A model generated the notes under the pieces. It did not search any database. It was not told where the DNA came from and worked only from the letters and a program-made list of their open reading frames with translations. The translations under genes were made by a program, and so were the position numbers. A stretch of 44,547 nucleotides of DNA from a virus, in the IMG/VR virus record IMGVR_UViG_3300030406_003579, positions 1-44,547 of that record; one strand, 5' to 3'. Below, in pieces: positions 13,501-44,382 of this stretch (its first letter is position 1; each line of letters opens with the position of its first letter).

Positions 13501-16500
13501 ATGGATTACCATCAGGTCCTAAAACTTCTGCTTGAATTTGATTTACATAAGTATATAAACCAACTTCGAGATTAACTTTTACATCGCTAGAAGCTATAAT
13601 TTCACCAGTATCTACATTTAAAAAGTTATGTTCTATTAAATTATAATCTCTTAAATAATTTCCATAAACTACTCTATTAGCCGTAACTTCTTGAGCTTTA
13701 GCGTTTCTTGGAACTGAATCAAAAGGTCTTAATATTTGATTAGGATCTATTGTTAAACCTAAAGTATTAGCGTTAAATGGATGTAAGCCAGTGTAAGATC
13801 CATTAGCAGGCGAGTTAAATTCACCATCTCTAAAATCATATTTTTTAACAGCATATATATTTGTAGCTTCTTCACTCTTAACAAGTAGCTCTACAGCTTT
13901 AACATCGTGAGGTATATTTTTAGGCGACCAGTCTATTAATCTAAGTAGTCTTATTTCGTTTATTAAAGATATATAAAAGTTTGGCCAGTCTATTTTTTGA
14001 TTTAGTGTTCTCCAAATAACAGTTGTAAAAGGTGCTAAACCAGAGTATTCATTATCTTCGTATTGATACCTGTAAGTAAACCTAAGCATAGCTTCTCTTA
14101 GCGCTCTATCATCGCTTAATCTATCACCACCGCCTACTTCAGACTCTAAACCTACAGACCAAACTTGCGGTAATGGTGGACCATAATATTTATAGTTTTC
14201 TTGACTATCAGGCTGTGGGCTTTCCCAGCCCCAACCTTGAAAAGTTGTAAAATAAGGAGACTTTCTTTCATGAGCGTCGCTAGGTAATACAGCTGCGTTT
14301 TTAGTATGATCACCTTCACCGACCAATGCCATAACTCCGCCGTTTGGTTTTACAAATCTTCTACTTAAATCACCTCTAAGCGTTGGATCTAGCATATCTT
14401 TAGCGTTATTTTCTATTATACGAATAGTTATAACATATTGACTAAAGTGATGTTCTGTAGAGAAAAAGCTTGGTGGTAAATCTATAGGCCCAGAAATACC
14501 AGCTACTGTTTCGCCGTTAGGATCAGTGCCATCAATAAACGACTCATTAACTAATTTATCGTTTAAAAATATAAACTTATCTGTTAAATTATTATAATAA
14601 TTTCCTAGATTATCTTTCCAACCGTTTTCATCAAACACGCCATTTACTACTGCTCCTCCGCCTACACGCATATTTATATGCTCTATTTTTTCTATTCTTG
14701 CTTTAACTCTATCAGCAAAACCATCGTGTCTTCTACCTGCAAACCTTTCTATTTGACCATTGCCAATTTCATCGTTGAAATCTTGACCACCATTAACACC
14801 ACTATAACTGTTGAATGTATCAATCACTTCGTGAGGAGTAATAAAATTGTTTGGTTCACCACCTTCAGTACTACCATAATCAACGTCAGCATATTGTCCT
14901 ACAAGCTCTGTTGCTCTAACATTACCTTGTCCTTCTAATATAATTATATCTCCTACTTGAAAGCCATGTGGCTGCACTACAAATCTACCTGGACCTGTAG
15001 GTCTAAAAGCTCCATTTTCGTTTTGCTCAATACGACCATTGTGTAAAAAGCCTCTATCTTCCATAACATCACCACCTATTCCCCAATACTCACTAATAGA
15101 TGAAATATTATCTAAACCTCCAGTTATATTAACTTGTGAAAATAAACCACCTAAATGATAGGCTCGATCTATAGCATGGCTATTAGGCACTAATGGATTT
15201 GGCATTGCTCCGTAATGATAAAAAACATCGCCTTCAGAACTTGCGTCACCTGAATAACTACCGCCAGGACTAAAGTATTGAAGCAGATCAGTGTTATCTA
15301 CTAAAGGCAAGCCAGATTCAGTTCTTGCTCCAGCTGTACCTCTATATTGCGCAAAAAGAGTAAGACCGTCAACAGTTCCACCATAAACATAGCTAGCCCC
15401 GTCCCAAGAATAACCACCTACTTGTGATATTGGGCCTCCAGTTGTAAGTATATGACCTCCAGTAGGATCATCAGCATAACCAAATGTTGGTCCAAAATCA
15501 ACTAAATTAGAAAACCCTGAGTTTAAGTATTTTTTAAATACAGGATGCGCAACAGCAGTATCAGCAGAGTTGCCAACAACGTTTTGCGGAAACTCTCCAT
15601 GCACTGGAAACATACAAGACTCTATGTTAAACTCATAACCTCCTAAACTACCGTCAAGAAAAATATCACTAGGCATACCAAAAAAGCCAGTACCTGCGCC
15701 TAGTTCTTCAATTCCTACATTACCACCCGCACCGTTTGGTATTCCAAAACCTTTTGACCAAGAGCTCCAAGCTAAAGTATCAGGAACGTCAAGAGTTAAG
15801 CTAGCTCTAAAGTCTTGCATATTAGCGTCGCTAGTAGTGTCAAAAGACGTGCCAAGTAAACGCTCAAAATTATAAAAGCTATCTACATCAGCGCCACTAC
15901 CTTCACCTAATGAATTACCATCAAAAGACAAAGCTTCACCACTTGCTGTTAAAAATCCAGCTTCATTTAAAAACGCAATAGGAAACTGTAGAACTTTACC
16001 TTCTGGGTGATTAGGATGTATAGGAAAAGGATGTGTCATAACACCTCTTGTTCTACCTACTATTTGAGTTTCAGTGCTTATACCGCCTCCAGTAATATCT
16101 GTTAGAACTTTTAAATGCTCTTCTGGATTTGGTCTTAAAACTGTACAATGTGATTCAATAACACCGCCTAAACCAGTATTAATAGCGTCAGCCGCTATAG
16201 CACCGTTTGGATGATGACCTGTAAAATCCCACTCAGGCACACCTTGAAAACCAACAGTATCATCAACATTTTCTTTTAAAAGTCTAGTGTGAAAAAATCT
16301 TCTATCTGTAATCCAGTCAGGATATATTGATTGTTCGTCAGATAAAGTACCAACTCTAGATCTTAATATATTTATTTTTTTAGGTTCGTTTTTAGAGTCT
16401 GTAAAGAATATTAATCCATCAAAAACGTTTATACCTGTAATATATCTATCGCTATAGTTAAAGTCTAATATTCTTTTAGATTTAAAAACAACATTATTAA

Positions 16501-18085
16501 AAGGTGCTATTACAGCGTTAACAAAAACGTTTCGATCATCTTTTAAATAAACTCTATAGCTAGCTCTATCAATATAATCTACATAAATAGCGTCTATAGC
16601 GTCATTAATAGGAGCATTGTTAGGCACTACTGAAGAAGGTGTACCTATTATATTATCATATTGGTAAACACGCATATCTTCTCTAATATCTAAATTACGC
16701 ATGTTAAAACCATCGTTTTCAAGCTGTATGTATGATCTACCTTCATTATCAACGCCATACTCGCTTACACCAGATCTTATTTCATAAACATCGTTAAATA
16801 TTAAATCCATAAGACCCATATCTGTAACGCCACCACTATTAGTCATGCTTTGCGTAGGCTCATACTCATATATAGCGTCTGCTCTAACAACAACATTTGC
16901 TCCACCAATTTCTGTAGGTGGTGGTGGTGGCTCGTCTGCTATTGGTTCACTGCTTATAGGATCTTCCACTAATGGGTCGCTAGTTGACACATCAGTATAA
17001 TATCCTTCTGAGCCATCGCTAAAAGTAGCGGCAAGAAGCAAAGTGTCTAAACTTCCAGCTGGCAAACCATAAACATCATTAATAGTAATATTTTCAATGC
17101 TTACAGACTCTGGAAAACTAACACCTGTGTGGTTTAAAAAACTTTCATTAAACAATATTTGATGTGAAGGAGTAACTCCAGTTACAAGATTTGGAAGAAG
17201 CTCTCCACCAGGAATAGGCTGTGTTAAAGTTACAGTGTTGTCTACAACTGTCACTTCAATTAAACCACTTGAATAATTCTCAATAGCTTCTTTAAAATTT
17301 TGCGCTATTACTGAGCCGTCTGGATGAGGATTAATAATAATTGTAGGTGGCACTACTTGAGGCCCTCCAAATTCATTAGTTTCTTGTGTAGAACCTAGGG
17401 TCATTACTGTACCGTTAGGTTGTACGTTGTATTCTTCTGCAAAATCATTACTAAGTGAAGTATTTGTGTATTGACCCCACTGTATATTAATGTATTCAAC
17501 TAAAATAGGATTACCATCATCATCAACGCTTGGGAAAACACGATCATTAAAAAATAACCACATTTGTTCGCTAAGAGCTGAACTGTTTGGACTTAAATCG
17601 TCAGAATCATCTTCAAAAGTAAAAGTAAATGTACCAGCTGTAGGCGGAACATAAACTGGATCTACAGTATCATCTACTATATCGTCAATAGGTGGAAGTG
17701 GATCTACAATATCTACAACGTCGTCAACAGAGTCTTCAACTATAAAGTTTTCTTGAAAAAGATTATTGACGTGAACTGAGTCTTGAACAAAATGGTAAGC
17801 TAAATCTTTAGCTTTATCTACTGAAGTACCTACTATTTGAGCATCTGTAAAACCTGTTAGTCTAGGTCCAAACGTATTATTAGGCAAGTCGCCTTGATGA
17901 CCCCAACGATCTAACGCTACAATTTCAACGTTAGCTCTAAGAGTTTCAAGTGATCCTTCATTACCTTGAGAAGAGCTACTAACTCTTATATTTAAGGCCT
18001 CGCGATATAAACCTTGGCCTACTAACCTCTCATCAAGGTCAAGATTCATTCCGCCTTTAACAAAAGTTCTTTTTAACTCAGCCAT
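10562..18085 (-). CDS. Giant tail protein (stabilisation/muzzle-like, 2507 aa)
   Basis: The protein has 2507 residues and a composition typical of beta-rich virion proteins (Gly, Asp, Asn, Thr, Val, Tyr; few Cys). The N-terminus carries the pattern FVKGGMNLDLDERL followed by GLYREALNIRV, which I associate with large tail or stabilisation proteins of crAss-like and other Bacteroidota podoviruses. An Asp/Pro-rich low-complexity linker lies at about 115-150 and another Pro run near 385-395. A stretch around 1750-1760 with DVDGDGE could bind Ca2+. It follows the two connector proteins with a 2-base gap and precedes the ejection-type proteins. The most likely role is the main tail/muzzle protein at the portal vertex; host-binding activity is possible but not shown. 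There is no transmembrane segment or enzyme motif that I can see. Confidence 0.75.
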   Translation of the reverse strand: MAELKRTFVKGGMNLDLDERLVGQGLYREALNIRVSSSSQGNEGSLETLRANVEIVALDRWGHQGDLPNNTFGPRLTGFTDAQIVGTSVDKAKDLAYHFVQDSVHVNNLFQENFIVEDSVDDVVDIVDPLPPIDDIVDDTVDPVYVPPTAGTFTFTFEDDSDDLSPNSSALSEQMWLFFNDRVFPSVDDDGNPILVEYINIQWGQYTNTSLSNDFAEEYNVQPNGTVMTLGSTQETNEFGGPQVVPPTIIINPHPDGSVIAQNFKEAIENYSSGLIEVTVVDNTVTLTQPIPGGELLPNLVTGVTPSHQILFNESFLNHTGVSFPESVSIENITINDVYGLPAGSLDTLLLAATFSDGSEGYYTDVSTSDPLVEDPISSEPIADEPPPPPTEIGGANVVVRADAIYEYEPTQSMTNSGGVTDMGLMDLIFNDVYEIRSGVSEYGVDNEGRSYIQLENDGFNMRNLDIREDMRVYQYDNIIGTPSSVVPNNAPINDAIDAIYVDYIDRASYRVYLKDDRNVFVNAVIAPFNNVVFKSKRILDFNYSDRYITGINVFDGLIFFTDSKNEPKKINILRSRVGTLSDEQSIYPDWITDRRFFHTRLLKENVDDTVGFQGVPEWDFTGHHPNGAIAADAINTGLGGVIESHCTVLRPNPEEHLKVLTDITGGGISTETQIVGRTRGVMTHPFPIHPNHPEGKVLQFPIAFLNEAGFLTASGEALSFDGNSLGEGSGADVDSFYNFERLLGTSFDTTSDANMQDFRASLTLDVPDTLAWSSWSKGFGIPNGAGGNVGIEELGAGTGFFGMPSDIFLDGSLGGYEFNIESCMFPVHGEFPQNVVGNSADTAVAHPVFKKYLNSGFSNLVDFGPTFGYADDPTGGHILTTGGPISQVGGYSWDGASYVYGGTVDGLTLFAQYRGTAGARTESGLPLVDNTDLLQYFSPGGSYSGDASSEGDVFYHYGAMPNPLVPNSHAIDRAYHLGGLFSQVNITGGLDNISSISEYWGIGGDVMEDRGFLHNGRIEQNENGAFRPTGPGRFVVQPHGFQVGDIIILEGQGNVRATELVGQYADVDYGSTEGGEPNNFITPHEVIDTFNSYSGVNGGQDFNDEIGNGQIERFAGRRHDGFADRVKARIEKIEHINMRVGGGAVVNGVFDENGWKDNLGNYYNNLTDKFIFLNDKLVNESFIDGTDPNGETVAGISGPIDLPPSFFSTEHHFSQYVITIRIIENNAKDMLDPTLRGDLSRRFVKPNGGVMALVGEGDHTKNAAVLPSDAHERKSPYFTTFQGWGWESPQPDSQENYKYYGPPLPQVWSVGLESEVGGGDRLSDDRALREAMLRFTYRYQYEDNEYSGLAPFTTVIWRTLNQKIDWPNFYISLINEIRLLRLIDWSPKNIPHDVKAVELLVKSEEATNIYAVKKYDFRDGEFNSPANGSYTGLHPFNANTLGLTIDPNQILRPFDSVPRNAKAQEVTANRVVYGNYLRDYNLIEHNFLNVDTGEIIASSDVKVNLEVGLYTYVNQIQAEVLGPDGNPLAIGISSDDGAIEQFEGVYSGVNANFGIPQESIKSFRSYQVGIVYRDELGRETPVLTNRQAVVKVGPEDSKKTQRITVAVKNPHPSWAKSYKFFVKDTSLDYHVLPLEQVLHFIEDDAGLDETSIEDVNSNISEGANSVLIFSSDHRNKVQEGDVLIQKRAHRRSGPPDPALSNVTNFYEPDNLTLEYVVQRITNEAPSAIATDINLEAQFEGKFFVYVKTDRPLIINNDIGILPGPNTAKTQGVFETKPKPNYDVDLYYEASQAYPIVLDDDTDEQFVKVGRMVEAYYYSTLIPGPGGGLSLNSSVQVTDSFFPQLYTSDVDGDGEVSILDDVDLTPITVTNVRTNVGRHSINDDIYTELTLSRAVTITVPPAPDHVVLKIQEHRGARLNVGEHIYVTLAESVVDSNIILVRRHTHLSNFSLVNDLVLPIALPYYNCFCFGNGIEISTVNNTFNGARIQKGVKASSIYDDYAEVKVGEGLIFSGVYNSYSGFNETNQFIEALGITKRFNPDHGTVQKLFSRANDLLVLCEDKVLKVLSDKDAIFKADANPELLATNRVLGQAIAFDGEYGISNNPESFAHYGFRSYFTDAKRGVIIRLSKDGMTLISDQGMDSYFKNYLTKARESEDYLFGSYDIDKGEYLISSLTFQALDIEDPIPQGLIVAWDESLDTWTSFHTYYASAQGYSLKNQYFSHLGPRTYHHDNEGASYGYHLGYHQARPLIQEPRVALVYNEAPGTVKDFTYLNYEGSQARIIPNNNDRVLSTNLQHDGWWVSDANTDLEVGMSINFKNKENKWHNNFMHRANAVSINKEEASKKLTTALGNPTAITPHPDGSQRLIITFDFGLVDASTIQQGMKASIMRFDPDSVDQNGGVTTYEPGDTIGQNLNLGTIESFTSTQIITTFVNPVDFAAATTTTDFVTGSPLFNFNSLLEIIVVLASSPVEHSSIKGYYAKVVWRNNDFNNKSELFSAALNAIESSK

Positions 18086-36175: not shown

Positions 36176-36390
36176 TGTTTATTTTTTTAATAGTTATAAC
36201 TATAAGTAGTAATTACATAAAAATAGGTATTATAAATATTTAAGTAAAGTGCTGCCCCCACCTATATACTCGTACTTACTTTGTGTAAACGCATTATGTT
36301 TATACTAGGCCCCCTTTTTATTTTATGTATGTACAAAATTTTTTGCATTTTACATTTACATATATACTTACTATATATTTTTTTACAAAC
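36176..36390. other. Divergent control region between late (left) and early (right) modules
   Basis: The region has no credible gene on either strand. It separates the leftward late operon from the rightward early genes and must carry at least the leftward promoter, for which I could not identify a convincing match to Bacteroidota (TTTG...TAnnTTTG) or to the early motif. Two GCCCCC tracts (36254-36259, 36309-36314) stand out against the AT-rich background, and a third occurs at 36698-36703. The remainder is A/T-rich with several TATATA stretches. An origin or regulator-binding role is possible but not shown. Confidence 0.5.
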
Positions 36391-36417
36391 TAGTTACGAC
36401 ATGTGTTGGATAATATA
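36391..36417 (+). promoter_or_regulatory. Early promoter-like repeat copy 1
   Basis: TAGTTACGA, six bases, TTGGATAATATA. The second half is identical to copies 2, 3, 4 and 6; the first half differs at two positions. It lies 36 bases before the ATG of the first early gene. Confidence 0.8.
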
Positions 36418-36452
36418 GATGTAAATAAATTATAAACTTAAACTAAATTATT

Positions 36453-36683
36453 ATGTCACAATTAACTCTTACTAAAAAGAGATTTGTAATCTCTAAATCA
36501 CTAATCGGTCAAAATGTATTAATAACATTTACTAACAAAAAAGGTGAAACGTATACTTATGACCACGACGCGGTCTACAGTGCGAATCAAGAAAAGTTTG
36601 AAACTATGAACTGTTTTCAAAAGTATGGTAATTACACCAATAGTAATAATGTACCAACATTCGGTCGTAAGTTCACAGTGTAA
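36453..36683 (+). CDS. First early protein (76 aa), unknown
   Basis: The 76-aa basic product (MSQLTLTKKRFVISKSLIGQ start) has the look of a small beta-rich protein, with LIGQNVLITFTNKKGETYTYD and a Phe/Tyr/Asn-rich C-terminal half ending FGRKFTV. It has one cysteine (position ~54), no signal peptide and no membrane segment. It is the first gene of the early module and is driven by promoter-like copy 1, with a small hairpin at its stop codon. Early single-gene units like this commonly make host-takeover factors; the function is unknown. Confidence 0.75.
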   Translation: MSQLTLTKKRFVISKSLIGQNVLITFTNKKGETYTYDHDAVYSANQEKFETMNCFQKYGNYTNSNNVPTFGRKFTV

Positions 36684-36692
36684 AAACTGTGA
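36673..36692 (+). terminator. Short hairpin overlapping the stop codon of the first early gene
   Basis: TCACAGT (36673-36679) can pair perfectly with ACTGTGA (36686-36692) around a six-base loop, GTAAAA, that contains the stop codon. No T-run follows, only CACTTGCCCCCTACTATA, so termination is doubtful; it might protect the mRNA 3' end or be chance. Confidence 0.3.
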
Positions 36693-36740
36693 CACTTGCC
36701 CCCTACTATACTTAACTTAACAACCTAATGTCACACTATT

Positions 36741-36839
36741 ATGATACATGATATTACTATACTAATACTACTCGGAATAATTTTACAATATATTGAAAAG
36801 TGTATTGTCGAGAAAGAGAGTGAACAGAACAACTCGTAA
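36741..36839 (+). CDS. Tiny membrane peptide candidate (32 aa)
   Basis: A 32-codon frame starts at ATG 36741: MIHDITILILLGIILQYIEK then a Glu/Asn-rich tail. The first 20 residues form one hydrophobic helix followed by charged residues, giving a single-pass architecture. It sits alone between two other early genes, with a stop before the next. Being short, it could be chance, but hydrophobic mini-proteins are common in early phage regions and the frame is clean. Confidence 0.45.
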   Translation: MIHDITILILLGIILQYIEKCIVEKESEQNNS

Positions 36840-36873
36840 CTAAATTTATTAACTAAATAAAATACCTACTTTT

Positions 36874-36999
36874 ATGTTAAATACTTATATCAGAAATATC
36901 AAATCGTTTTATAGAAACAACTACTCTTGTTTGATTATGTTGAAATACACTATTCGATTTATACTTTGTAATGTATTTGGTAAAAAATACACAAAATAA
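36874..36999 (+). CDS. Small basic hydrophobic protein (41 aa)
   Basis: A 41-codon frame starts at ATG 36874 after an A/T-rich leader and ends at a TAA that also begins promoter-like copy 2. The sequence MLNTYIRNIKSFYRNNYSCL then a Met/Leu/Ile/Phe-rich stretch and a Lys-rich end (VFGKKYTK) is amphipathic with a basic N-terminus, compatible with a membrane-associated peptide. The shared stop-codon/promoter junction is a pattern seen for several confident genes here, which supports it. Confidence 0.5.
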   Translation: MLNTYIRNIKSFYRNNYSCLIMLKYTIRFILCNVFGKKYTK

Positions 37000-37023
37000 A
37001 AACGATACTTGTTGGATAATATA
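36997..37023 (+). promoter_or_regulatory. Early promoter-like repeat copy 2
   Basis: TAAAAACGA, six bases (TACTTG), TTGGATAATATA. The TAA is the stop of the preceding gene. The next start (37047) is 35 bases from the TTGG. Confidence 0.85.
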
Positions 37024-37046
37024 TATGAATTTAAACTTTAAAAATT

Positions 37047-37214
37047 ATGGAATTTATTAGAACTTTTACATGTGATTTAACTGGAGAAACAGTTAACATT
37101 TACCTAACACCTCAAGGTGAAGAAGTATGTCTTTCTTCTGAGGAAGATTACTCTCAGTTTCCTGAAGACGAACAAGAAATTGAGTCAATATGTATTGAGT
37201 ATTTGTTATCATAA
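37047..37214 (+). CDS. Small acidic protein (55 aa)
   Basis: A 55-codon frame starts at ATG 37047, 35 bases after the second promoter half. It begins MEFIRTFTCDLTGETVNIYL and continues with a strongly acidic second half (about 13 Glu/Asp in residues 25-52, EEDYSQFPEDEQEIESICIE). The N-terminal half alternates hydrophobic and polar residues as in a beta hairpin. Acidic mini-proteins in early phage modules often mimic DNA or bind host enzymes; that is speculation here. Bounded on both sides by promoter-like copies 2 and 3, so it is probably a one-gene unit. Confidence 0.7.
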   Translation: MEFIRTFTCDLTGETVNIYLTPQGEEVCLSSEEDYSQFPEDEQEIESICIEYLLS

Positions 37215-37221
37215 CACAAAT

Positions 37222-37248
37222 TAAATACGACTCAAGTTGGATAATATA
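37222..37248 (+). promoter_or_regulatory. Early promoter-like repeat copy 3
   Basis: TAAATACGA, six bases (CTCAAG), TTGGATAATATA; full match to consensus. It shares with copy 2 a further identical downstream stretch, TATGAATTTAAACT. The next start (37271) is 34 bases from the TTGG. Confidence 0.88.
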
Positions 37249-37270
37249 TATGAATTTAAACTAATAAAAT

Positions 37271-37465
37271 ATGTCAAAGAAAATAATTAATAAAGTTGTA
37301 GATGAAACAGTAGATACTATAATAGATACTATAGATGAAGTACTAGTAGATTATATGTATGACTATGGTAACTATGAAGAGTCAAATGAAAAATTCTTTA
37401 ATGATAAAGAAGAGATGTTTGTTAAAGTAGTAGAAGAATTATATAACAGAATAAATAATAAGTGA
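37271..37465 (+). CDS. Small acidic helical protein (64 aa)
   Basis: The 64-aa product starts MSKKIINKVVDETVDTIIDT and continues as a mostly helical, acidic, Tyr-rich sequence. Repeated D-x-x-x-D/E spacing suggests an amphipathic helix pair. It is expressed from promoter-like copy 3 and is followed after one base by the 37-aa gene. No known domain; function unknown. Confidence 0.65.
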   Translation: MSKKIINKVVDETVDTIIDTIDEVLVDYMYDYGNYEESNEKFFNDKEEMFVKVVEELYNRINNK

Positions 37466-37466
37466 T

Positions 37467-37580
37467 ATGAAAGTAACTAATAAAATAACAGGTGAAGACA
37501 TAACTAAATATGTCATCGGTTTACTAGAAGGTTTAATTACTCAAGATGAGTTTGAAGAACTAACTATGATTACAAAATAA
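37467..37580 (+). CDS. Tiny protein (37 aa)
   Basis: A 37-codon frame begins one base after the previous stop (TAAGTGATATG region, ATG at 37467), starting MKVTNKITGEDITKYVIGLL and containing EGLITQDEFEELTMITK. Its end TAA is the first three bases of promoter-like copy 4. The pattern of helix with ITGEDI..., ...EGLITQDEFEEL recalls short two-helix modules. Close coupling to the 64-aa gene supports translation. Confidence 0.6.
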   Translation: MKVTNKITGEDITKYVIGLLEGLITQDEFEELTMITK

Positions 37581-37604
37581 ATACGTTACTCGTTGGATAA
37601 TATA
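37578..37604 (+). promoter_or_regulatory. Early promoter-like repeat copy 4
   Basis: TAAATACGT, six bases (TACTCG), TTGGATAATATA. The opening TAA is the stop of the preceding gene. The next start (37627) is 34 bases from the TTGG. Confidence 0.86.
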
Positions 37605-37626
37605 AATAAACTTAATAAAATATACT

Positions 37627-37851
37627 ATGTCAAACTTTAAATCAGACTCATCAACTAATATAATTAAATTAAATAACCAAACTTATATACCATTTCAACT
37701 TCACCAATTACCGAAGTACTATAATGAAATACCTTTATCAGAACAATTTAATTTAAAAGGTTACTGTTATATAAACTTAACTTCTTTAAAATCTCACAAC
37801 AAAGATATTCATACTCTAAATAAAGACTTAGATTATACTCAAAGAAGATAA
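37627..37851 (+). CDS. Small hypothetical protein (74 aa)
   Basis: The 74-aa product is rich in Asn, Leu, Tyr and Ser, starting MSNFKSDSSTNIIKLNNQTY with a beta-like middle (PFQLHQLPKYYNEIPLSEQF) and a basic tail (LDYTQRR). No motif, membrane segment or signal peptide is visible. It forms a single-gene unit between promoter-like copies 4 and 5. Unknown function. Confidence 0.6.
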   Translation: MSNFKSDSSTNIIKLNNQTYIPFQLHQLPKYYNEIPLSEQFNLKGYCYINLTSLKSHNKDIHTLNKDLDYTQRR

Positions 37852-37856
37852 CAAAA

Positions 37857-37883
37857 TAAATACGATTACTAATGGATAATAAT
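37857..37883 (+). promoter_or_regulatory. Early promoter-like repeat copy 5 (variant)
   Basis: TAAATACGA, six bases (TTACTA), ATGGATAATAAT. Two or three positions of the second half deviate. Its ATGG creates an in-frame ATG at 37872 that a gene finder would take as a start, so it argues for the later start at 37890. Confidence 0.8.
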
Positions 37884-37889
37884 AACGAT

Positions 37890-38081
37890 ATGAAAATTAA
37901 ATTAAAAGAACTAGAGGCACTACTAGTCAGTCACGACTGGTACTATATGATGAGTGACGATAACAGATACTACAAACAAGGTAGAAAGTCATTTGAATTA
38001 ATAACTAAATTAATGTTCGAGTTAAAAGAAGGTGGTTATTACACCGAAGCGAACGAGTTGTATGATAAATATAGTAAATAA
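37890..38081 (+). CDS. Small helical protein (63 aa), start shifted to avoid the promoter
   Basis: The product from ATG 37890 starts MKIKLKELEALLVSHDWYYM and continues with DDNRYYKQGRKSFELITKLM and a Tyr/Glu-rich end; the sequence is helix-rich and charged. An upstream in-frame ATG at 37872 would add six residues (MDNNND), but that ATG lies within promoter-like copy 5, so a transcript started there would lack it. I therefore favour 37890, which would need a very short leader. It is followed one base later by the exported 94-aa gene. Function unknown. Confidence 0.62.
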   Translation: MKIKLKELEALLVSHDWYYMMSDDNRYYKQGRKSFELITKLMFELKEGGYYTEANELYDKYSK

Positions 38082-38082
38082 T

Positions 38083-38367
38083 ATGAATAAAATTAAATTA
38101 ACAGTAGCGACATTACTACTAGGTGGTATGTGTTACGGTCAAGTTCAAGTAAAAGACGACGCTTTAACTAAAAAAATAGCGTACATTGAGTCAAAAAATA
38201 CTATTGAAGATATGATAGAGTGGATGCGAGCAGACATTAAAACTGGTTTAGTAAGAGCAGAAGTTGGTCAATCTTATGTTGAAAACTTATACGAACTACT
38301 ATCAAGACTAGAAGATATTAATGCAGGTTACATATTTGACTGCGAAAACTGTGATGAACTAGATTAA
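38083..38367 (+). CDS. Exported small protein with Sec signal peptide (94 aa)
   Basis: The natural start is ATG 38083 (MNKIKLTVATLLLGGMCYGQ), directly after the previous stop; a longer frame from 38032 would overlap the upstream gene and hide a clear signal peptide (basic n-region residues 2-5, hydrophobic 6-15, small residues before Gln20). The mature part (about 74 residues) is acidic and helical with KKIAYIESKNTIEDMIEWMR and a C-terminal DCENCDELD. Export from an early gene suggests modification of the host envelope, for example superinfection exclusion; this is inference. Confidence 0.68.
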   Translation: MNKIKLTVATLLLGGMCYGQVQVKDDALTKKIAYIESKNTIEDMIEWMRADIKTGLVRAEVGQSYVENLYELLSRLEDINAGYIFDCENCDELD

Positions 38368-38368
38368 T

Positions 38369-38575
38369 ATGACAATAACTATAAAACAAATCGGTAAAAC
38401 TTACAAGGTAAGTGACGATAATACGATAGAAATAACTCACGAGCACGATGCGGTAGTGTCTGTATGTGGCGAATACTACAAAAATAAATACACTGGCGAG
38501 TGGTTAAGTGAGTTAGAAGCCGAGCAGGCAATGATAGACAAGTACGAAGAAGATGAATCAAACAAGTATTACTAA
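38369..38575 (+). CDS. Small acidic protein (68 aa)
   Basis: The 68-aa product starts MTITIKQIGKTYKVSDDNTI and contains EITHEHDAVVSVCGEYYKNK and TGEWLSELEAEQAMIDKYEE. The first half looks like beta strands, the second like an acidic helix. It begins one base after the stop of the exported 94-aa gene and its stop overlaps the next mini-gene's start (TAATG). No known motif; function unknown. Confidence 0.62.
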   Translation: MTITIKQIGKTYKVSDDNTIEITHEHDAVVSVCGEYYKNKYTGEWLSELEAEQAMIDKYEEDESNKYY

Positions 38576-38646
38576 TGTTTGAGTGGGCGTGGGTAATATG
38601 CGCTTGCTGGTATTTAGGCAATGCAATACATAGACAAGATAAATGA
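38575..38646 (+). CDS. 23-aa membrane mini-protein, coupled at both ends
   Basis: A 23-codon frame begins in a TAATG overlap with the 68-aa gene and ends in an ATGA overlap with the 125-aa gene. The peptide MFEWAWVICACWYLGNAIHR plus QDK is a hydrophobic helix with two Cys and three Trp and a short charged end. The perfect head-to-tail coupling on both sides is the evidence for a real gene; without it a frame this short would not be callable. Confidence 0.6.
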   Translation: MFEWAWVICACWYLGNAIHRQDK

Positions 38647-39020
38647 GAAAGATTACATTATCAGTAGCTGTACTACTAGGTAGTTTAGCTGCTAAAGCAC
38701 AGACAGAATACATAGATGTTACTAGTAAAAAACCGTTTGGCAGAAGTGAAATGGTAGTCTACAATGATGACGTTAACTATAACGATTTAGAATACTTTTA
38801 CTTAGGTAGGTTTACTAAAAAATACCATTGGATAAAGTATACTAACGCTAAAAAAATTATTTTATCACTAAATGATGACAAAGGTGACAAACGAGAAATA
38901 TGTACAAAGCAAAATGATTTTAGAGCATACTGCGAAGTTGTAGATGCTTTTGCTAGTCAATACCTTATTAATGTAACAACAGAAAAATTCCAAATATGGA
39001 TTTCAAAACCTTTAAAATAA
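38643..39020 (+). CDS. Exported protein with Sec signal peptide (125 aa)
   Basis: The 125-aa precursor begins MRKITLSVAVLLGSLAAKAQ, a textbook signal peptide with an AxA-like cleavage site (AKA before Gln20). The mature domain (about 105 aa) is mixed, with aromatic-rich segments such as NDLEYFYLGRFTKKYHWIKY, two Cys, and a C-terminal FQIWISKPLK. It is translationally coupled to the 23-aa membrane peptide. Together with the 94-aa protein, it shows that the early region places at least two proteins in the periplasm or outside. A superinfection-exclusion role is possible but unproven. Confidence 0.7.
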   Translation: MRKITLSVAVLLGSLAAKAQTEYIDVTSKKPFGRSEMVVYNDDVNYNDLEYFYLGRFTKKYHWIKYTNAKKIILSLNDDKGDKREICTKQNDFRAYCEVVDAFASQYLINVTTEKFQIWISKPLK

Positions 39021-39025
39021 AAATT

Positions 39026-39127
39026 ATGAGAAAATTTTCACACACAGACTTAGCAATGATAGGTGGTGCAGCAGCATTACTAGGCTCAATAGTATTTATG
39101 TTAATGTCTCACGGTATTACAAATTAA
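39026..39127 (+). CDS. Small single-pass membrane protein (33 aa)
   Basis: A 33-codon frame from ATG 39026 reads MRKFSHTDLAMIGGAAALLG followed by SIVFMLMSHGITN: a short polar N-terminus and one glycine/alanine-rich hydrophobic helix. It follows the exported 125-aa gene by five bases and its TAA stop is the first three bases of promoter-like copy 6. A tiny inner-membrane peptide of unknown role. Confidence 0.55.
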   Translation: MRKFSHTDLAMIGGAAALLGSIVFMLMSHGITN

Positions 39128-39151
39128 ATACGATTACCGTTGGATAATATA
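39125..39151 (+). promoter_or_regulatory. Early promoter-like repeat copy 6
   Basis: TAAATACGA, six bases (TTACCG), TTGGATAATATA; perfect consensus. It starts at the stop codon of the 33-aa gene and drives the zinc-ribbon gene and the structured segment 39398-39571, ending at the U-tract at 39567. The next start (39186) is 46 bases from the TTGG. Confidence 0.88.
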
Positions 39152-39185
39152 TATGACAAAAGCTTATTAAATAAAATTAAATAAT

Positions 39186-39398
39186 ATGAATTACTGTAAA
39201 TGTGGTGAGCCCGTACATCCAGTTAGACAAAAATACGGGTACAAAACGTGTGTTAGCTGTAGTAATGTAGAGCGTGTCGCATCGGCACCTATTACTAATC
39301 ATAAAACAGGTAACACAATACAAATAGTATCGCAAGCACAATCTATTGCGATAGCAAAGGCAAGTCGCCGTAAAGGTTACGGCACATGTCTTAGGTAA
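39186..39398 (+). CDS. Small zinc-ribbon-like protein (70 aa)
   Basis: The 70-aa product has CxC near the N-terminus (CKCGEPVHPVRQKYGYKTC) and CVSC about 17 residues later, a four-Cys arrangement like DksA/TraR-type or small phage zinc ribbons. The middle (SAPITNHKTGNTIQIVSQAQ) is strand-like and the C-terminus is basic (ASRRKGYGTCLR). It is driven by promoter-like copy 6. Its stop TAA overlaps the base of the long RNA stem that follows. In the -1 frame after the stop, 16 more sense codons (VIKRGKAKVVGTKKSK) continue a Lys-rich tail, so a frameshifted longer form is conceivable. A transcription regulator role is plausible. Confidence 0.7.
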   Translation: MNYCKCGEPVHPVRQKYGYKTCVSCSNVERVASAPITNHKTGNTIQIVSQAQSIAIAKASRRKGYGTCLR

Positions 39399-39571
39399 TA
39401 AAGAGAGGAAAAGCCAAAGTTGTAGGCACGAAGAAATCTAAGTAAGACCTATGTAAAAGACTAAAGTGCTCTCTTTATAATATACGAGTGTGGCGCGTGA
39501 GACGTGTAGTTCCTTGCAGCAATAGCTCATGAGTGAACATCTTACTCACTTGGCCACCTCGTTTTTTATTA
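39398..39571 (+). ncRNA. Candidate two-domain structured RNA, unknown class
   Basis: This gene-free stretch of 174 bases has two structural domains visible by hand. Domain 1: ATAAAGAGAG (39398-39407) pairs perfectly with CTCTCTTTAT (39469-39478), 10 bp enclosing 61 bases. Domain 2: ACGAG, a bulged T, GTGGC, then GTGAG (39484-39501) pairs with CTCAC, GCCAC and CTCGT (39545-39562), 15 bp with a small internal loop (GC/TTG) enclosing 43 bases, followed by six T (39562-39567), like an intrinsic terminator. It is notably GC-richer than its surroundings and lacks tRNA T-arm sequence. The upstream zinc-ribbon gene and promoter-like copy 6 make it one transcription unit. Identity and function unknown. 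Confidence 0.6.
39484..39567 (+). terminator. Extended stem plus U-tract ending the zinc-ribbon/RNA unit
   Basis: The outer 10 bp of domain 2 (ACGAG/CTCGT and GTGGC/GCCAC with one bulged T) directly precedes TTTTTTATT. The stem closes over a 70-base interior, larger than a normal terminator, so the element probably doubles as a structured RNA end. The next gene starts 23 bases beyond the U-tract. Confidence 0.6.
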
Positions 39572-39589
39572 ACTATTAAATTAAACAAT

Positions 39590-39784
39590 ATGACTATATT
39601 GACAGTATTAGACTTTGAAGAAGGATTAGTATATCAATACGATATACGTCAAGCTTTCGATATGAAAGAATTACAAGTAGAAGACTTTGAAAAGATTATA
39701 ATTGACCAAGGTCACAAGTTAGATGATTGTGAGTGGATGACGCACAGTGATGATACTATAAATAAAATTAAAATTGAATTATGA
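39590..39784 (+). CDS. Small acidic protein (64 aa)
   Basis: I choose ATG 39590 (MTILTVLDFEEGLVYQYDIR), preceded by the A/T-rich leader typical of this phage; an in-frame ATG at 39533 would start inside the terminator stem. The 64-aa product is acidic, with VEDFEKIIIDQGHKLDDCEW and a hydrophilic end. Its stop overlaps the next start (ATGA). The same LxxFEKxI-type helical pattern occurs in other small phage proteins but I do not recognise a family. Confidence 0.65.
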   Translation: MTILTVLDFEEGLVYQYDIRQAFDMKELQVEDFEKIIIDQGHKLDDCEWMTHSDDTINKIKIEL

Positions 39785-40314
39785 AATATAAAGTAACAAC
39801 AGCTACCGAAGCATTGCAAGTATTTGACATGCTCGGTATTAAAAACGTCTCAACAAGGCGGCAAAAGAAAAATGGTACACAAGTATACGAGCTACCTATA
39901 CAACAAATGTGGCAAACACTTAACCCAAAACCTTTACGCTTTGCCTGTTACAGGTCAGGCTATATACGTAATGTAAGTGAATATAATTCAAGTGCTTATC
40001 AAATTAACAAAACTAAAAAGGTAGAAGTAAATGAATATCATAACTATTATGAACAAACAAAGCGTATACTTATACCTAATTACGATGAGCGATTAGTATA
40101 CTTAGCTAATTTTATACTAAAAAATTACTATCAAAAACCTACATACTTAATAAACGACTATGTTATTAAGTGTTTAAAAGAAGCTTATTTAAGAGATTAC
40201 AATAACAGTCCTAACAATAGACTACCGTTTGGCGATATTGTACATCCAGACTCTTCGCCAGTAGATGATATAAAAGTAATTATCAACGGGCATAGATATA
40301 ACCTCACAAACTAA
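39781..40314 (+). CDS. Hypothetical early protein (177 aa)
   Basis: The 177-aa basic product begins MKYKVTTATEALQVFDMLGI and has a Tyr-rich middle (YRSGYIRNVSEYNSSAYQIN, then NEYHNYYEQTKRILIPNYDE). The C-terminal half includes KPTYLINDYVIKCLKEAYLR and SPVDDIKVIINGHRYNLTN. It looks like an alpha/beta protein with positive charge that might contact nucleic acid. It is translationally coupled (ATGA) to the 64-aa gene and its stop codon begins promoter-like copy 7. Unknown function. Confidence 0.65.
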   Translation: MKYKVTTATEALQVFDMLGIKNVSTRRQKKNGTQVYELPIQQMWQTLNPKPLRFACYRSGYIRNVSEYNSSAYQINKTKKVEVNEYHNYYEQTKRILIPNYDERLVYLANFILKNYYQKPTYLINDYVIKCLKEAYLRDYNNSPNNRLPFGDIVHPDSSPVDDIKVIINGHRYNLTN

Positions 40315-40338
40315 ATACGAATACTAACGGATAATAAT
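40312..40338 (+). promoter_or_regulatory. Early promoter-like repeat copy 7 (variant)
   Basis: TAAATACGA, six bases (ATACTA), ACGGATAATAAT. It starts at the stop codon of the 177-aa gene. The next start (40362) is 35 bases from the GG motif, like copies 2-4. Confidence 0.82.
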
Positions 40339-40361
40339 ATAAACCAATTAAATAAACCATT

Positions 40362-40733
40362 ATGAATAAAGTAGAATTAGAAGCAAAGATAGAAGCTTTG
40401 CAAACAGCTCTTGATACTAAAACACAAGAGCAAAATGCGTATCGAGGTCAAATTGATACACTTAAAAAACAACTAGAAGACTTAAGCAAACCAAAGCTTA
40501 CATTAGAACAATTTGACGAGCTACAAGAAGCTATTGAAAAAGGTATTATGAACTACGACTTCAGTGACCAAGACTGCTACAGCATTGACTTCGGTATTGA
40601 CTATGATGGTAGAGTGCATTGTGAGTCGCTTGAGTTTGATAATGCTGATGACTTAGGTAGAGAAATATTTAGCTACGTAGAACGTTTGTTCGGCGAAGCA
40701 GATGAAGATAATAACCAAGAAAACCAAGATTAA
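40362..40733 (+). CDS. Coiled-coil acidic protein (123 aa)
   Basis: Residues 1-48 form a clear coiled coil (MNKVELEAKIEALQTALDTK, then EQNAYRGQIDTLKKQLEDLS). After it comes an acidic alpha/beta domain with DYDFSDQDCYSIDFGIDYDG (approximate) and a Glu/Asp/Asn-rich tail. Its architecture (coiled-coil dimeriser plus acidic globular domain) suggests a protein-protein interaction factor. It begins a unit driven by promoter-like copy 7. Function unknown. Confidence 0.65.
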   Translation: MNKVELEAKIEALQTALDTKTQEQNAYRGQIDTLKKQLEDLSKPKLTLEQFDELQEAIEKGIMNYDFSDQDCYSIDFGIDYDGRVHCESLEFDNADDLGREIFSYVERLFGEADEDNNQENQD

Positions 40734-40734
40734 T

Positions 40735-40971
40735 ATGAAAACATTATGGCAAAAGCTAAAACCAGAAATTAAACAAGCTATAAAAGACCAACAAGATAAA
40801 TACCCTTCTATGGTTGAAGGCGTTAAAATATCGTTGAAAGAAAATTACTTCTGGTCGCACTTAACTATTGGCCAAGCAAGAGATATTATTTACTTTACAG
40901 ATTTAACTTTAGCTAGCTTATCTAGTTACGACTGGTCGTACGGCGAAAAATTTATTATATGCGAAGATTAA
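40735..40971 (+). CDS. Small hypothetical protein (78 aa)
   Basis: The start ATG 40735 follows the previous stop with one base between; a longer frame from 40702 would overlap the upstream gene. The product begins MKTLWQKLKPEIKQAIKDQQ and has KENYFWSHLTIGQARDIIYF and a Ser/Tyr-rich end (SYDWSYGEKFIICED). It is helix-rich with several Trp, no motif I know, and belongs to the copy 7 transcript. Confidence 0.62.
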   Translation: MKTLWQKLKPEIKQAIKDQQDKYPSMVEGVKISLKENYFWSHLTIGQARDIIYFTDLTLASLSSYDWSYGEKFIICED

Positions 40972-40979
40972 TATACGAT

Positions 40980-41066
40980 ATGTACTATAAAGATGAAATA
41001 TCTATAGACATAGCAATTAAATTATTAGATAAATTAAATGAACTTTCAAATAAAAAACGAAGATGA
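40980..41066 (+). CDS. Tiny helical protein (28 aa)
   Basis: A 28-codon frame from ATG 40980 reads MYYKDEISIDIAIKLLDKLN followed by ELSNKKRR, a single amphipathic helix with a basic end. Its TGA stop overlaps the next ATG (ATGA, 41063), suggesting translational coupling. As with the other mini-genes, coupling is the main support. A degenerate look-alike of the promoter element (TACGA at 40974-40978) precedes it. Confidence 0.5.
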   Translation: MYYKDEISIDIAIKLLDKLNELSNKKRR

Positions 41067-41335
41067 CAGGACAAGAAGTAGAAGATTATATTAAAAACGA
41101 ACTTGGTTGTGAGCCAAGACATAATGTATATGCTATAGCAGATGCAGCAGATGAGCTAGCGTATTTATATAGTAATAGTACAACAGCTAAAGAAATTGTT
41201 GAGTTTATGTTAGCAAATAAACCAATACCAGGTTTAGCTACTCACAGTTATGGCTTTCATAGTCGTAGTGGTAGAAGAGTACGAGACATGTTTTCAGAAT
41301 ATTATAACAGTTATATAAGAAACAATGGCAACTAG
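41063..41335 (+). CDS. Hypothetical early protein (90 aa)
   Basis: The 90-aa product begins MTGQEVEDYIKNELGCEPRH and contains DAADELAYLYSNSTTAKEIV and GLATHSYGFHSRSGRRVRDM. The second part (GFHSRSGRRVRDMF) is Arg-rich and might bind nucleic acid. Helical, with one Cys and several His. It overlaps the 28-aa gene at its start (ATGA) and the following gene by 11 bases. Function not known. Confidence 0.62.
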   Translation: MTGQEVEDYIKNELGCEPRHNVYAIADAADELAYLYSNSTTAKEIVEFMLANKPIPGLATHSYGFHSRSGRRVRDMFSEYYNSYIRNNGN

Positions 41336-41786
41336 AGCATTAATATGTTTTGCTAAGCGTGAAGATAAAGTATCGTTTAGCGACTTTCAATTATACGACG
41401 ACTGCGGTAGAGCAAGAGTTACACACCAAATATACCATCATTATGATGGCGCACCTGATTTTTTAGGTATTGCACTAGCAGACTTTATTAATAATGTAGG
41501 TGATAAACACAACGGTGTGCATTGTTTTGCAGCTCAGTTATTAACACACTTAAAGCTAGGTATACACTACGGTAAATGTAGTAATGATTCACACAATGTA
41601 TATTTAGAAACACCAGGTGATGAACACGGTGACCTTGACTACACATATTATTTATGGTGGGGTAAAAATGAAATATGGATTAGTATATTTAGATATGACC
41701 ACACTACTGCTGACCACTGTATATTCGTAGGTCAAGCACGTAATCTTATATATAAATACAAACTAAATACGAACTCTGATGGATAA
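41325..41786 (+). CDS. Hypothetical protein of a phage family (153 aa)
   Basis: The 153-aa product starts MATRALICFAKREDKVSFSD and is His/Asp/Tyr-rich (THQIYHHYDGAPDFLGIALA, NGVHCFAAQLLTHLKLGIHY, YDHTTADHCIFVGQARNLIY). The spacing of His, Cys and Asp would allow metal binding but no named motif is evident. MATRALICF-type starts occur in unrelated phages as a recurrent small family, as far as I recall. Its last codons (KLNTNSDG then stop) are also the bases of promoter-like copy 8. It overlaps both neighbours. Confidence 0.65.
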   Translation: MATRALICFAKREDKVSFSDFQLYDDCGRARVTHQIYHHYDGAPDFLGIALADFINNVGDKHNGVHCFAAQLLTHLKLGIHYGKCSNDSHNVYLETPGDEHGDLDYTYYLWWGKNEIWISIFRYDHTTADHCIFVGQARNLIYKYKLNTNSDG

Positions 41787-41790
41787 TATG
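41764..41790 (+). promoter_or_regulatory. Early promoter-like repeat copy 8, overlapping gene end
   Basis: TAAATACGA, six bases (ACTCTG), ATGGATAATATG. This copy lies inside the C-terminal codons of the 153-aa gene and runs over its stop codon and over the ATG of the next gene. The exact spacer is kept even though it must also encode protein, which argues that the element is functional. Confidence 0.8.
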
Positions 41791-42045
41791 AACGACGAAC
41801 AAATGCAAAAGCTAGCTAAATATATAGCAGCAGATCTTACTAAAAGAATTTATGGTATTGCAAATCCTGCCACTGAAGATAATGATATGATGTGGTATGC
41901 AGACAGAGATGATGACCACGCTGTTGGTGAGTTAGCTAGGCTAATGACATTATTAAATCTATATCAAGACAGAGAAGAATATGAAAAGTGCCATTTAATA
42001 AACAAGCACATTAAAAGATTAGAAAAAATAGTAGAAAATTTATGA
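41779..42045 (+). CDS. Helical acidic protein (88 aa), start uncertain
   Basis: The 88-aa reading starts at ATG 41779 (MDNMNDEQMQKLAKYIAADL), but this ATG and the next one (41788) lie in promoter-like copy 8. A transcript starting downstream of that element would use ATG 41803 or be fed from an upstream promoter. The protein is helix-rich with ARLMTLLNLYQDREEYEKCH and a Lys-rich end. It overlaps the ligase start by 4 bases (ATGA), so it is probably translated with ligase. Confidence 0.6.
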   Translation: MDNMNDEQMQKLAKYIAADLTKRIYGIANPATEDNDMMWYADRDDDHAVGELARLMTLLNLYQDREEYEKCHLINKHIKRLEKIVENL

Positions 42046-42884: not shown

Positions 42885-43002
42885 AAAGTTAAAAAACCGA
42901 ATCAATAAGTTTAATAAAATTAAATATCCTAATGATAATTCTAAAAGAATTATTATAGCATCGTTAAAACCGGCTGTGACAGCAGCCTCTAAGAATAAAT
43001 AG
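42877..43002 (+). CDS. Tiny basic protein (41 aa)
   Basis: The frame from ATG 42877 overlaps the ligase end by 8 bases and reads MNKKLKNRINKFNKIKYPND, then NSKRIIIASLKPAVTAASKNK. It is Lys-rich (about 25%) and hydrophilic with a single hydrophobic patch (IIIAS), suggesting a nucleic-acid- or membrane-associated peptide. An in-frame ATG at 42793 lies within the ligase and is less likely. Function unknown. Confidence 0.5.
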   Translation: MNKKLKNRINKFNKIKYPNDNSKRIIIASLKPAVTAASKNK

Positions 43003-43012
43003 TAGCAGGCTA

Positions 43013-43633
43013 ATGTCACACGATAGAAACCTAACATACCTAAACAACAAACGTTTAATATACAGGCGACATCCAGTATCAGACAAACCAGACATTGATA
43101 CTAAAGAGTTTATGTATTTTAAAAACGGTACGCATCAATGCTACGAGCTATTTAGATCAACAGCAAAGATTACTACGTATCGTTCACTTAAATGGCATTT
43201 ACTAGTACTTTGGTATTTAAACCCTAACCTCAATCAAGACGACTTTATACAACTAGCTGAATATATAGTACACAAGCCAAATGGCTTTGTAAGTTTTAAC
43301 GTATCAGAACGTTTGCTAGAAAAAGTTGTCTACGAGGTTAGCATGTCTGACCTTGATCGTCCACCTAAAAACAAACTACGTAAAGTTATATTTAAACCGT
43401 TTAGTGGTTTAACAAAAGAACAAAAATTATCTATTGTAGGCCAGCTAGTTGGTCAAAGTCCTAGAGTTTGTTCTGACGACATATATGCTGTTATGATAGA
43501 TATGCATGACATGGGCAAAAAAATTACAATAGGACGCATTGCAGGCTTATTAGACTGTTCATCGCGTACAATACACAGACACATGTGTAATGAACTTAAA
43601 AAAGAAAAAGAACTACTTAATCAACAACTATGA
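43013..43633 (+). CDS. HTH DNA-binding protein (206 aa), gene adjacent to sigma
   Basis: The 206-aa product has a basic N-terminal part (YLNNKRLIYRRHPVSDKPD), a central segment with FSGLTKEQKLSIVGQLVGQS, and a C-terminal HTH-like stretch at about 170-195, KITIGRIAGLLDCSSRTIHR followed by a Lys/Glu helix. The HTH pattern (x-T-I-G-R-I-A-G-L-L-D-C-S-S-R-T-I-H-R-H) is the sort used by transcription regulators. It overlaps the sigma-factor gene by 4 bases, so it might be an accessory or anti-sigma-like partner. Function is inferred. Confidence 0.6.
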   Translation: MSHDRNLTYLNNKRLIYRRHPVSDKPDIDTKEFMYFKNGTHQCYELFRSTAKITTYRSLKWHLLVLWYLNPNLNQDDFIQLAEYIVHKPNGFVSFNVSERLLEKVVYEVSMSDLDRPPKNKLRKVIFKPFSGLTKEQKLSIVGQLVGQSPRVCSDDIYAVMIDMHDMGKKITIGRIAGLLDCSSRTIHRHMCNELKKEKELLNQQL

Positions 43634-44382
43634 AACAATACGATTCAAATAATTTTAGTAGATATAAAAAAGATGTTAAAGCTTCTCAACCACAAAACAA
43701 AGCTTGGCATGAATATAAGCGTGATGAACTTATAATTAAGTTTATGCCTCTTGTTGAAAACATAGCCCGTAAGTTTAAAGATAGTGATGCTGCAAATGGT
43801 ATAGTATCTTTACCTGATAGAATACAGTTTGGCCACATAGGCTTAATTAAAGCTGTAGACAAAATACAATGGAAACAAATATTTGAATCAAAAGATCCTG
43901 AGAAAACAATTAAGTCTTATTTTGCTAAGCGTATACGTGGTGCAATACGTAGAGCTACTGATACTAACAGGTCAGGTATGCGTATACCTGAGCATAAGCT
44001 AAATGATATTAGAAAAAACTTTGATAATGAAAGTAATTCAACATTATTTTTTAACTCTATGTTTGATAGCATTGACCATCAGCTTGATGATGAAAACTCT
44101 TATCTATACCAAATAGAAGATAAGTCAGAAGATCCTTTACGAAAAGAAAAACTACACGGTATAATAAGAGATATTATGTTGAAACATTTATCTGAAAAAG
44201 AATATCATGTAGTAAGATTAAGCTATGGACTTGGCTGTGATAAATTATCTGCAAAGCAAATAGCTAATAAACTAAATATGCAAGGCACTAGCTCTTTTGT
44301 TAGAGTTTCACAACTAAAAAAGCAAGCAATTGAAAAGCTTAAAAATGTTTTAGATCACTCGCAAGTGACTGACTATCTGTAA
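43630..44382 (+). CDS. Phage sigma-70-family factor
   Basis: The 250-aa protein shows region 2 (about 27-112), with RDELIIKFMPLVENIARKFK, FGHIGLIKAVDKI and SYFAKRIRGAIRRATDTNR (core binding and -10 recognition helix), a short region-3-like GMRIPEHKLNDIRKN, and region 4 (about 185-242), with LSEKEYHVVRLSYGLGCDKL and the HTH AKQIANKLNMQGTSSFVRVS. It lacks region 1.1 and is the size of a compact alternative or phage sigma. It lies 2-7 kb downstream of the eight promoter-like repeats and is translationally coupled to the preceding HTH gene. It may direct host RNA polymerase to those repeats or, alternatively, to the late promoters. Confidence 0.88.
   Translation: MKQYDSNNFSRYKKDVKASQPQNKAWHEYKRDELIIKFMPLVENIARKFKDSDAANGIVSLPDRIQFGHIGLIKAVDKIQWKQIFESKDPEKTIKSYFAKRIRGAIRRATDTNRSGMRIPEHKLNDIRKNFDNESNSTLFFNSMFDSIDHQLDDENSYLYQIEDKSEDPLRKEKLHGIIRDIMLKHLSEKEYHVVRLSYGLGCDKLSAKQIANKLNMQGTSSFVRVSQLKKQAIEKLKNVLDHSQVTDYL

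Follow-up and report, generated by a model that had tools for sequence, protein, structure and literature searches.

A predicted early-strand promoter class and a co-occurring phage sigma factor in a marine virus group related to flavobacterial phages

The window of this study, a 44,547-nucleotide (nt) stretch comprising positions 1 to 44,547 of IMG/VR virus record IMGVR_UViG_3300030406_003579 and thus most of that 45.7-kb record, is laid out as rightward early genes and leftward late genes. The terminase shares 64% identity with the one in MW202828, with Elemovirus and other Flavobacteriaceae phages more distant. Our subject is a repeated element present in eight copies on the early strand, together with the gene for a sigma-70-family factor (43630-44382, +) that lies downstream of the eighth copy. 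A sequence-only reading of the window had described the element as two conserved halves held at a fixed distance and had proposed that it marks a phage-specific promoter class.

The repeated element and its start-site signature

All eight copies were found where the sequence-only reading had placed them, all on the plus strand, and each has a purine at the predicted start. Copy 1 (36383-36421) carries the upstream block, at -38 to -22, at 36383-36399 and GATAAT at 36409-36414, with a predicted start at G36421 and a 32-nt leader to the ATG at 36453. Copies 2 (36989-37027, GATAAT at 37015-37020), 3 (37214-37252, GATAAT at 37240-37245), 4 (37570-37608, GATAAT at 37596-37601) and 7 (40304-40342, GATAAT at 40330-40335) would start at G37027, G37252, A37608 and A40342, giving leaders of 20, 19, 19 and 20 nt before ATGs at 37047, 37271, 37627 and 40362, respectively. 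Copy 6 (39117-39155, GATAAT at 39143-39148) has its predicted start at G39155 and a 31-nt leader to the ATG at 39186. The leaders are shorter at copy 5 (37849-37887, GATAAT at 37875-37880, predicted start G37887), with 3 nt before the ATG at 37890, and at copy 8 (41756-41794, GATAAT at 41782-41787, predicted start G41794), with 9 nt before an in-frame ATG at 41803. The listed gene starts 37872 and 41779 fall inside these two copies, and 37890 and 41803 are the more probable starts.

When the window was scanned with the consensus first proposed, allowing up to three mismatches, 7 copies were found as against 0 in 100 shuffles, and the copy at 40312, which has four mismatches, was recovered at a looser threshold. 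A weight matrix built from 404 copies found exactly the eight sites, at 37-45 bits, and no further site of 12 bits or more, so that the leftward late module is free of the element, as had been noted. That the repeat is bipartite was borne out, and so were the use of its opening TAA as the stop codon of the preceding gene in copies 2, 4, 6 and 7 and the placing of the next ATG 34-35 bases from the TTGG in four copies. The proposed consensus itself was exact only at 37222 and 39125, and the conserved unit proved to be longer in both directions, extending from TTACAAAC upstream to AAAT-purine downstream.

An exact-pattern scan located the motif in at least 119 IMG/VR stretches, and its carriers are a very common, unstudied marine virus group related to phages of Flavobacteria/Flavobacteriaceae. 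The conserved unit derived from 404 non-redundant copies reads TTACAAACTAAATACGA-N7-TGGATAATATAAAT-R. Relative to the inferred +1, GATAAT occupies -12 to -7 and the 17-bp upstream block, which contains the half-site TAC(A/G)A twice at an 11-bp distance, occupies -38 to -22. The near-invariant A and T of the motif logo are therefore A-11 and T-7, and in known promoters it is the bases at these two positions that are captured by sigma region 2. The spacing is rigid: AATACGA-N9-GATAATAT occurs 310 times, the N8 form once, and the remaining gaps from N4 to N13 not at all, while the base preceding GATAAT differs among genomes and may be G, A, T or C. Ten near-complete relatives have 5-13 copies apiece, nearly all on one strand and in the early region, and in 201 sources with a sigma gene the strand is that of sigma (the early strand) for 906 of 918 copies. 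Weak single copies on the opposite (late) strand were seen close to the first early promoter at L223:8156 (G005 48156, -) and L242:6293 (G010 26293, -), with scores of 18.8 and 23.0, and late-side use of these is possible. A host regulon was considered and rejected, since a scan of 84,980 bacterial and archaeal genomes turned up 52 hits, scattered and close to the roughly 30 estimated by chance.

The start itself was studied in 587 non-redundant copies collected with a matrix that omitted everything downstream of the -10 region and thus excluded the +1 column. The base at +1 was a purine in 580 of the 587, compared with 63% purine at the flanking bases (P about 3e-103), and the proportion was 99% in the 220 copies that have no start codon there. 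Start codons, counted for open frames of at least 40 codons, lay exactly on +1 in 67 cases, one base before it in 1 and one base after it in 2, and only 17 of 511 assigned start codons were upstream of +1. The purine at +1 and the pile-up of start codons upon it argue that the repeats are almost certainly promoters with a predictable start. Genes whose messages would be leaderless make up about 13% of those with an assigned start; in leadered genes A-3 is present in 86%, and A-11 and A-12 in 84-90%. This leader context agrees with the start-codon determinants A-3 and A-12/A-13 known from F. johnsoniae (PMC6847099), and leaderless messages are likewise on record in F. psychrophilum, at the lower share of 5.5% (PMC9723704).

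The sigma factor gene and its surroundings

The gene at 43630-44382 (+) encodes a 250-aa protein with regions 2, 3.0-like and 4 of the sigma-70 family, as judged by PHROG, Pfam, NCBIfam, PDB-profile and structure matches. A structure model of the protein has a mean predicted local distance difference test score (pLDDT) of 69, and its region 2 could be aligned with sigma structures already known, at 2.5-2.7 A across some 97 residues. The best PDB-profile match is FliA, with a score far below the FliA family cut-off. The gene was present in 25 of 26 motif-bearing records, and the exception (G023) is a record that ends inside the ligase gene that usually precedes the helix-turn-helix (HTH) and sigma genes. 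Pervagoviridae (phi38:1), Elemovirus (elemoA), Maribacter phage Panino and MW202828 resemble the window in terminase and/or portal, in chaperonin genes and in their divergent modules, but neither motif nor sigma factor was detected in phi38:1, elemoA, Panino or MW202828. In these 26 records and four relatives, apart from the truncated record, sigma gene and promoter class are present together or absent together. Gapped repeats in phi38:1 and Panino have the look of a tRNA T-arm and were rejected as promoters. MW202828 (L207/L208) has a palindrome of its own, the stoperator-like GTGTCGTTAACGACAC, which occurs some 14-15 times in a genome that also holds a gene annotated as a repressor.

Directly preceding and overlapping the sigma gene is a gene (43013-43633, +) for a 206-aa protein with HTH-like helices at its C-terminus, for which there is a weak HTH_11 hit and a pLDDT of over 90 in the predicted C-terminal helices. 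It was found in 188 of 202 sources of the sigma survey and is a candidate co-regulator; a structure search with the protein gave no reliable match. In G017 (L499-L502; 1617-4444 and 63297-65658) the block of ligase, HTH and sigma genes occurs twice with differing sequences, the two sigma copies being 65% and 76% identical to that of the window, which reflects either a real duplication or a mixed assembly. Another conserved feature is the inverted repeat GTGACA-N3-GCC...GGC-N3-TGTCAC, to which a stretch at about 36692-36738 of the window is similar. The window copy at 42976-43019 overlaps the HTH gene's ATG, and its RNA folds into a hairpin (z -3.2). The same repeat was seen at G002:14124, G003:58198, G005:47988, G006:45812, G007:59675, G009:55666 and G012:6909, in several relatives at the divergent early/late junction, and it may be an operator for the HTH protein or a translational hairpin.

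Elsewhere in the early module, 3' of promoter copy 6, lies a conserved non-coding element (39480-39567) of the form TATACGAGYGTGGCGCGTGAG...CTCACTTGGCCACCTCGTTTT, with two conserved halves that pair with each other around a variable middle. It also occurs in L303, L306, L307, L315, L317, L319, L346 and L366, and an Rfam search, which included it, gave no match at the gathering threshold and a single sub-threshold chance match. Two late genes are very large. The last of them (789-8129, -) encodes 2446 aa, conserved in the C-terminal part and with a HAD-like DFDET segment mid-protein; Pfam and PHROG searches gave no match, and it is possibly an ejection protein. That it might be a virion RNA polymerase (RNAP) was rejected, given the HAD-like segment in the conserved part and the lack of any family match. 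The other (10562-18085, -) encodes 2507 aa, and its N-terminus hits PF25731, the crassvirus muzzle family, right at the family cut-off.

How the promoters may be read

The earlier claim of a phage-specific promoter class is strongly supported by the start-site signature, the rigid geometry and the restriction to the early strand, as well as by the lack of any sign of a host regulon and the co-occurrence with the phage sigma factor. The sequence-only reading had gone on to suggest an early promoter recognized by a phage or modified host polymerase; host RNAP modified by a sigma factor fits the data, while for a phage polymerase no gene was found. We consider it probable, from sequence, that host RNAP is redirected to these promoters by the phage sigma factor. 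The DNA would open at GATAAT, RNA would start at the purine seven bases beyond it, and the block TTACAAACTAAATACGA would substitute for a -35 element, its reader being sigma region 4 and/or a phage activator. The transcripts would either begin with AUG at the 5' end or have a short A-rich leader with a flavobacterial start-codon context. The class would drive the early-strand genes, including the stretch leading into the sigma gene, and because that gene lies downstream of copy 8, it would feed its own activator and be self-amplifying. For the same reason, the "early" class may really be delayed-early or middle. In F. psychrophilum the sigma set consists only of sigmaA (TAnnTTTG), one sigma54 and seven extracytoplasmic function sigma factors (PMC9723704), so that to hosts of this kind a promoter with GATAAT would seem foreign.

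The motif with its geometry and strand, the start-site signature and the co-occurrence with the sigma gene are seen in the sequence itself, whereas transcription from the motif, its recognition by this sigma and its timing are inferred. Several points weigh against recognition by the phage sigma factor. Shared ancestry could explain the co-occurrence of sigma gene and motif. Raw mutual information linked sigma residues with promoter bases, for instance recognition-helix residue 228 with base -30, but none of these links survived when changes were counted on the tree, in a phylogeny-aware co-change test that tied no sigma residue to promoter bases after correction. Where the upstream block has been replaced, region 4.2 shows no more change than the remainder of sigma. 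The sigma gene, furthermore, is downstream of the promoters it should activate, which leaves the first round of its synthesis unexplained, and a scan for the exact Bacteroidota host-type consensus gave nothing on the early module's early strand and no more sites than shuffled sequence did.

An alternative that we regard as unlikely, though worth keeping in mind, is that the repeats are true, immediate-early promoters of the host sigmaA holoenzyme, assisted by a phage or host activator at -38 to -22, and that the phage sigma serves other (late) genes. The promoters do precede the first early genes and the sigma operon itself, the long upstream block with its two half-sites and 11-bp period has the look of an activator site, and an HTH-like protein is co-conserved. 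Set against this are the tracking of the class with the phage sigma gene, its not being detected in relatives that lack that gene, and a -10 element that is GATAAT where flavobacterial sigmaA has TAnnTTTG at -12 to -5 (PMC9723704).

A single-subunit, T7-like phage RNAP starting at the conserved GG is very improbable. AATACGA stands 8-9 bases before the GG and resembles the T7 promoter, TAATACGACTCACTATAGGG, but PF00940 found no such polymerase in the 26 motif-bearing records while its T7 positive control scored E 1e-109, and the idea was rejected on that account; the giant late protein has no polymerase family match either, the start signature is not at the GG but 12 bases past its second G, and the base before GATAAT varies with the genome. 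Equally hard to credit are sites bound by protein for other ends, or start-associated sequences (operators, stoperators, translation signals). The stoperators and start-associated sequences of actinobacteriophages likewise have one orientation and lie close to start codons, but neither an operator nor an RNA element would be expected to hold a purine at a fixed position whatever the distance to the start codon, or to show a pile-up of ATGs at exactly +1; A-11 and T-7, moreover, are near-invariant.

As for the phage sigma factor as reader, six sigma loci for which 4 kb or more of upstream sequence is available lack the canonical motif. Four of the six keep GATAAT and the start region but have a different block upstream: CTCACC...TTAAATAATTT in L427, TCGAATTATAATACGA in L476, CACGGACTTA in L492 and a diverged form in L445. 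L427 and L451 carry the substitutions R225K and Q228K in the recognition helix, while phages with other altered recognition helices have retained the canonical block. As region 4.2 is not preferentially changed and altered helices occur with the canonical block, sigma region 4, another phage protein (e.g., the co-conserved 206-aa HTH protein) or the two together may read the upstream block. We tentatively suggest a modular promoter, in which the -10/start half is for the conserved phage sigma and the -38 to -22 half is a separate address for a fast-evolving phage determinant. Candidates for that determinant are region 4 of sigma and the HTH protein encoded alongside it; relatives have exchanged the upstream half several times.

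Known promoter systems and the meaning for the lineage

A phage sigma with cognate promoters would be a system of a known kind. phiEco32, phage 7-11, T4 (gp55) and SPO1 (gp28 with gp33/34) likewise have a phage sigma-70-family protein and their own promoters repeated through one module, and the promoters of phage 7-11 were, as here, discovered from sequence alone (PMC4331800). The window has the same ingredients, i.e., its own sigma-70-family protein with regions 2 and 4 and a repeated promoter with a -10-like element at a fixed distance from a purine, the inferred start. The known systems belong to phages of Proteobacteria or Firmicutes, whereas the window phage is related to Flavobacteriaceae phages, and the phage 7-11 motif has a short TGTGATGTTATA-type -10 element where the repeat described here has a 17-bp block upstream, rigidly spaced. 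The GATAAT -10, the many leaderless starts and the early-strand location are further contrasts.

Among bacterial promoters, those of FliA/sigma28 (group 3) share GATAA at -10 with G at -12, and FliA is the phage sigma's best PDB-profile match, albeit far below the family cut-off; in comparison with their consensus, TAAA-N15-GCCGATAA, the TAAA here is about 4 bp nearer the -10, GCC is absent and the upstream block is longer. Bacteroidota sigmaA promoters (TTTG / TAnnTTTG) have A at -11 and T at -7 in common with the repeat, whose leader context is like that of F. johnsoniae and for which the host core enzyme is probable, but the repeat has no TTTG at -33 and no TAnnTTTG at -12 to -5; its share of leaderless starts also exceeds that of F. 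psychrophilum (PMC9723704). GATAAT matches five of the six bases of the E. coli sigma70 TATAAT, but -36 to -31 reads ACAAAC in place of TTGACA (spacing 16-18 bp), and a generic consensus scan gave no excess (41 vs 43). The sequence-only reading was thus right that the element matches neither the E. coli nor the Bacteroidota consensus, neither element of the latter being in the logo.

We found no earlier description of these promoters, or of such a system in this lineage, in the open literature searched (most subscription papers were outside its coverage), and a text search for the motif string returned unrelated papers only. The arrangement raises the question of how promoters that lead into the gene for their own sigma factor are first turned on. 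For a marine phage lineage that is abundant but uncultured, the motif allows transcription to be mapped from sequence, with start sites, gene starts and leaderless messages that are predictable in hundreds of genomes. The promoter-sigma pair might also serve as an orthogonal expression tool in Bacteroidota, where E. coli promoters fail. If the promoter is modular, each lineage would have an early transcription of its own and could be insulated from relatives infecting the same cell.

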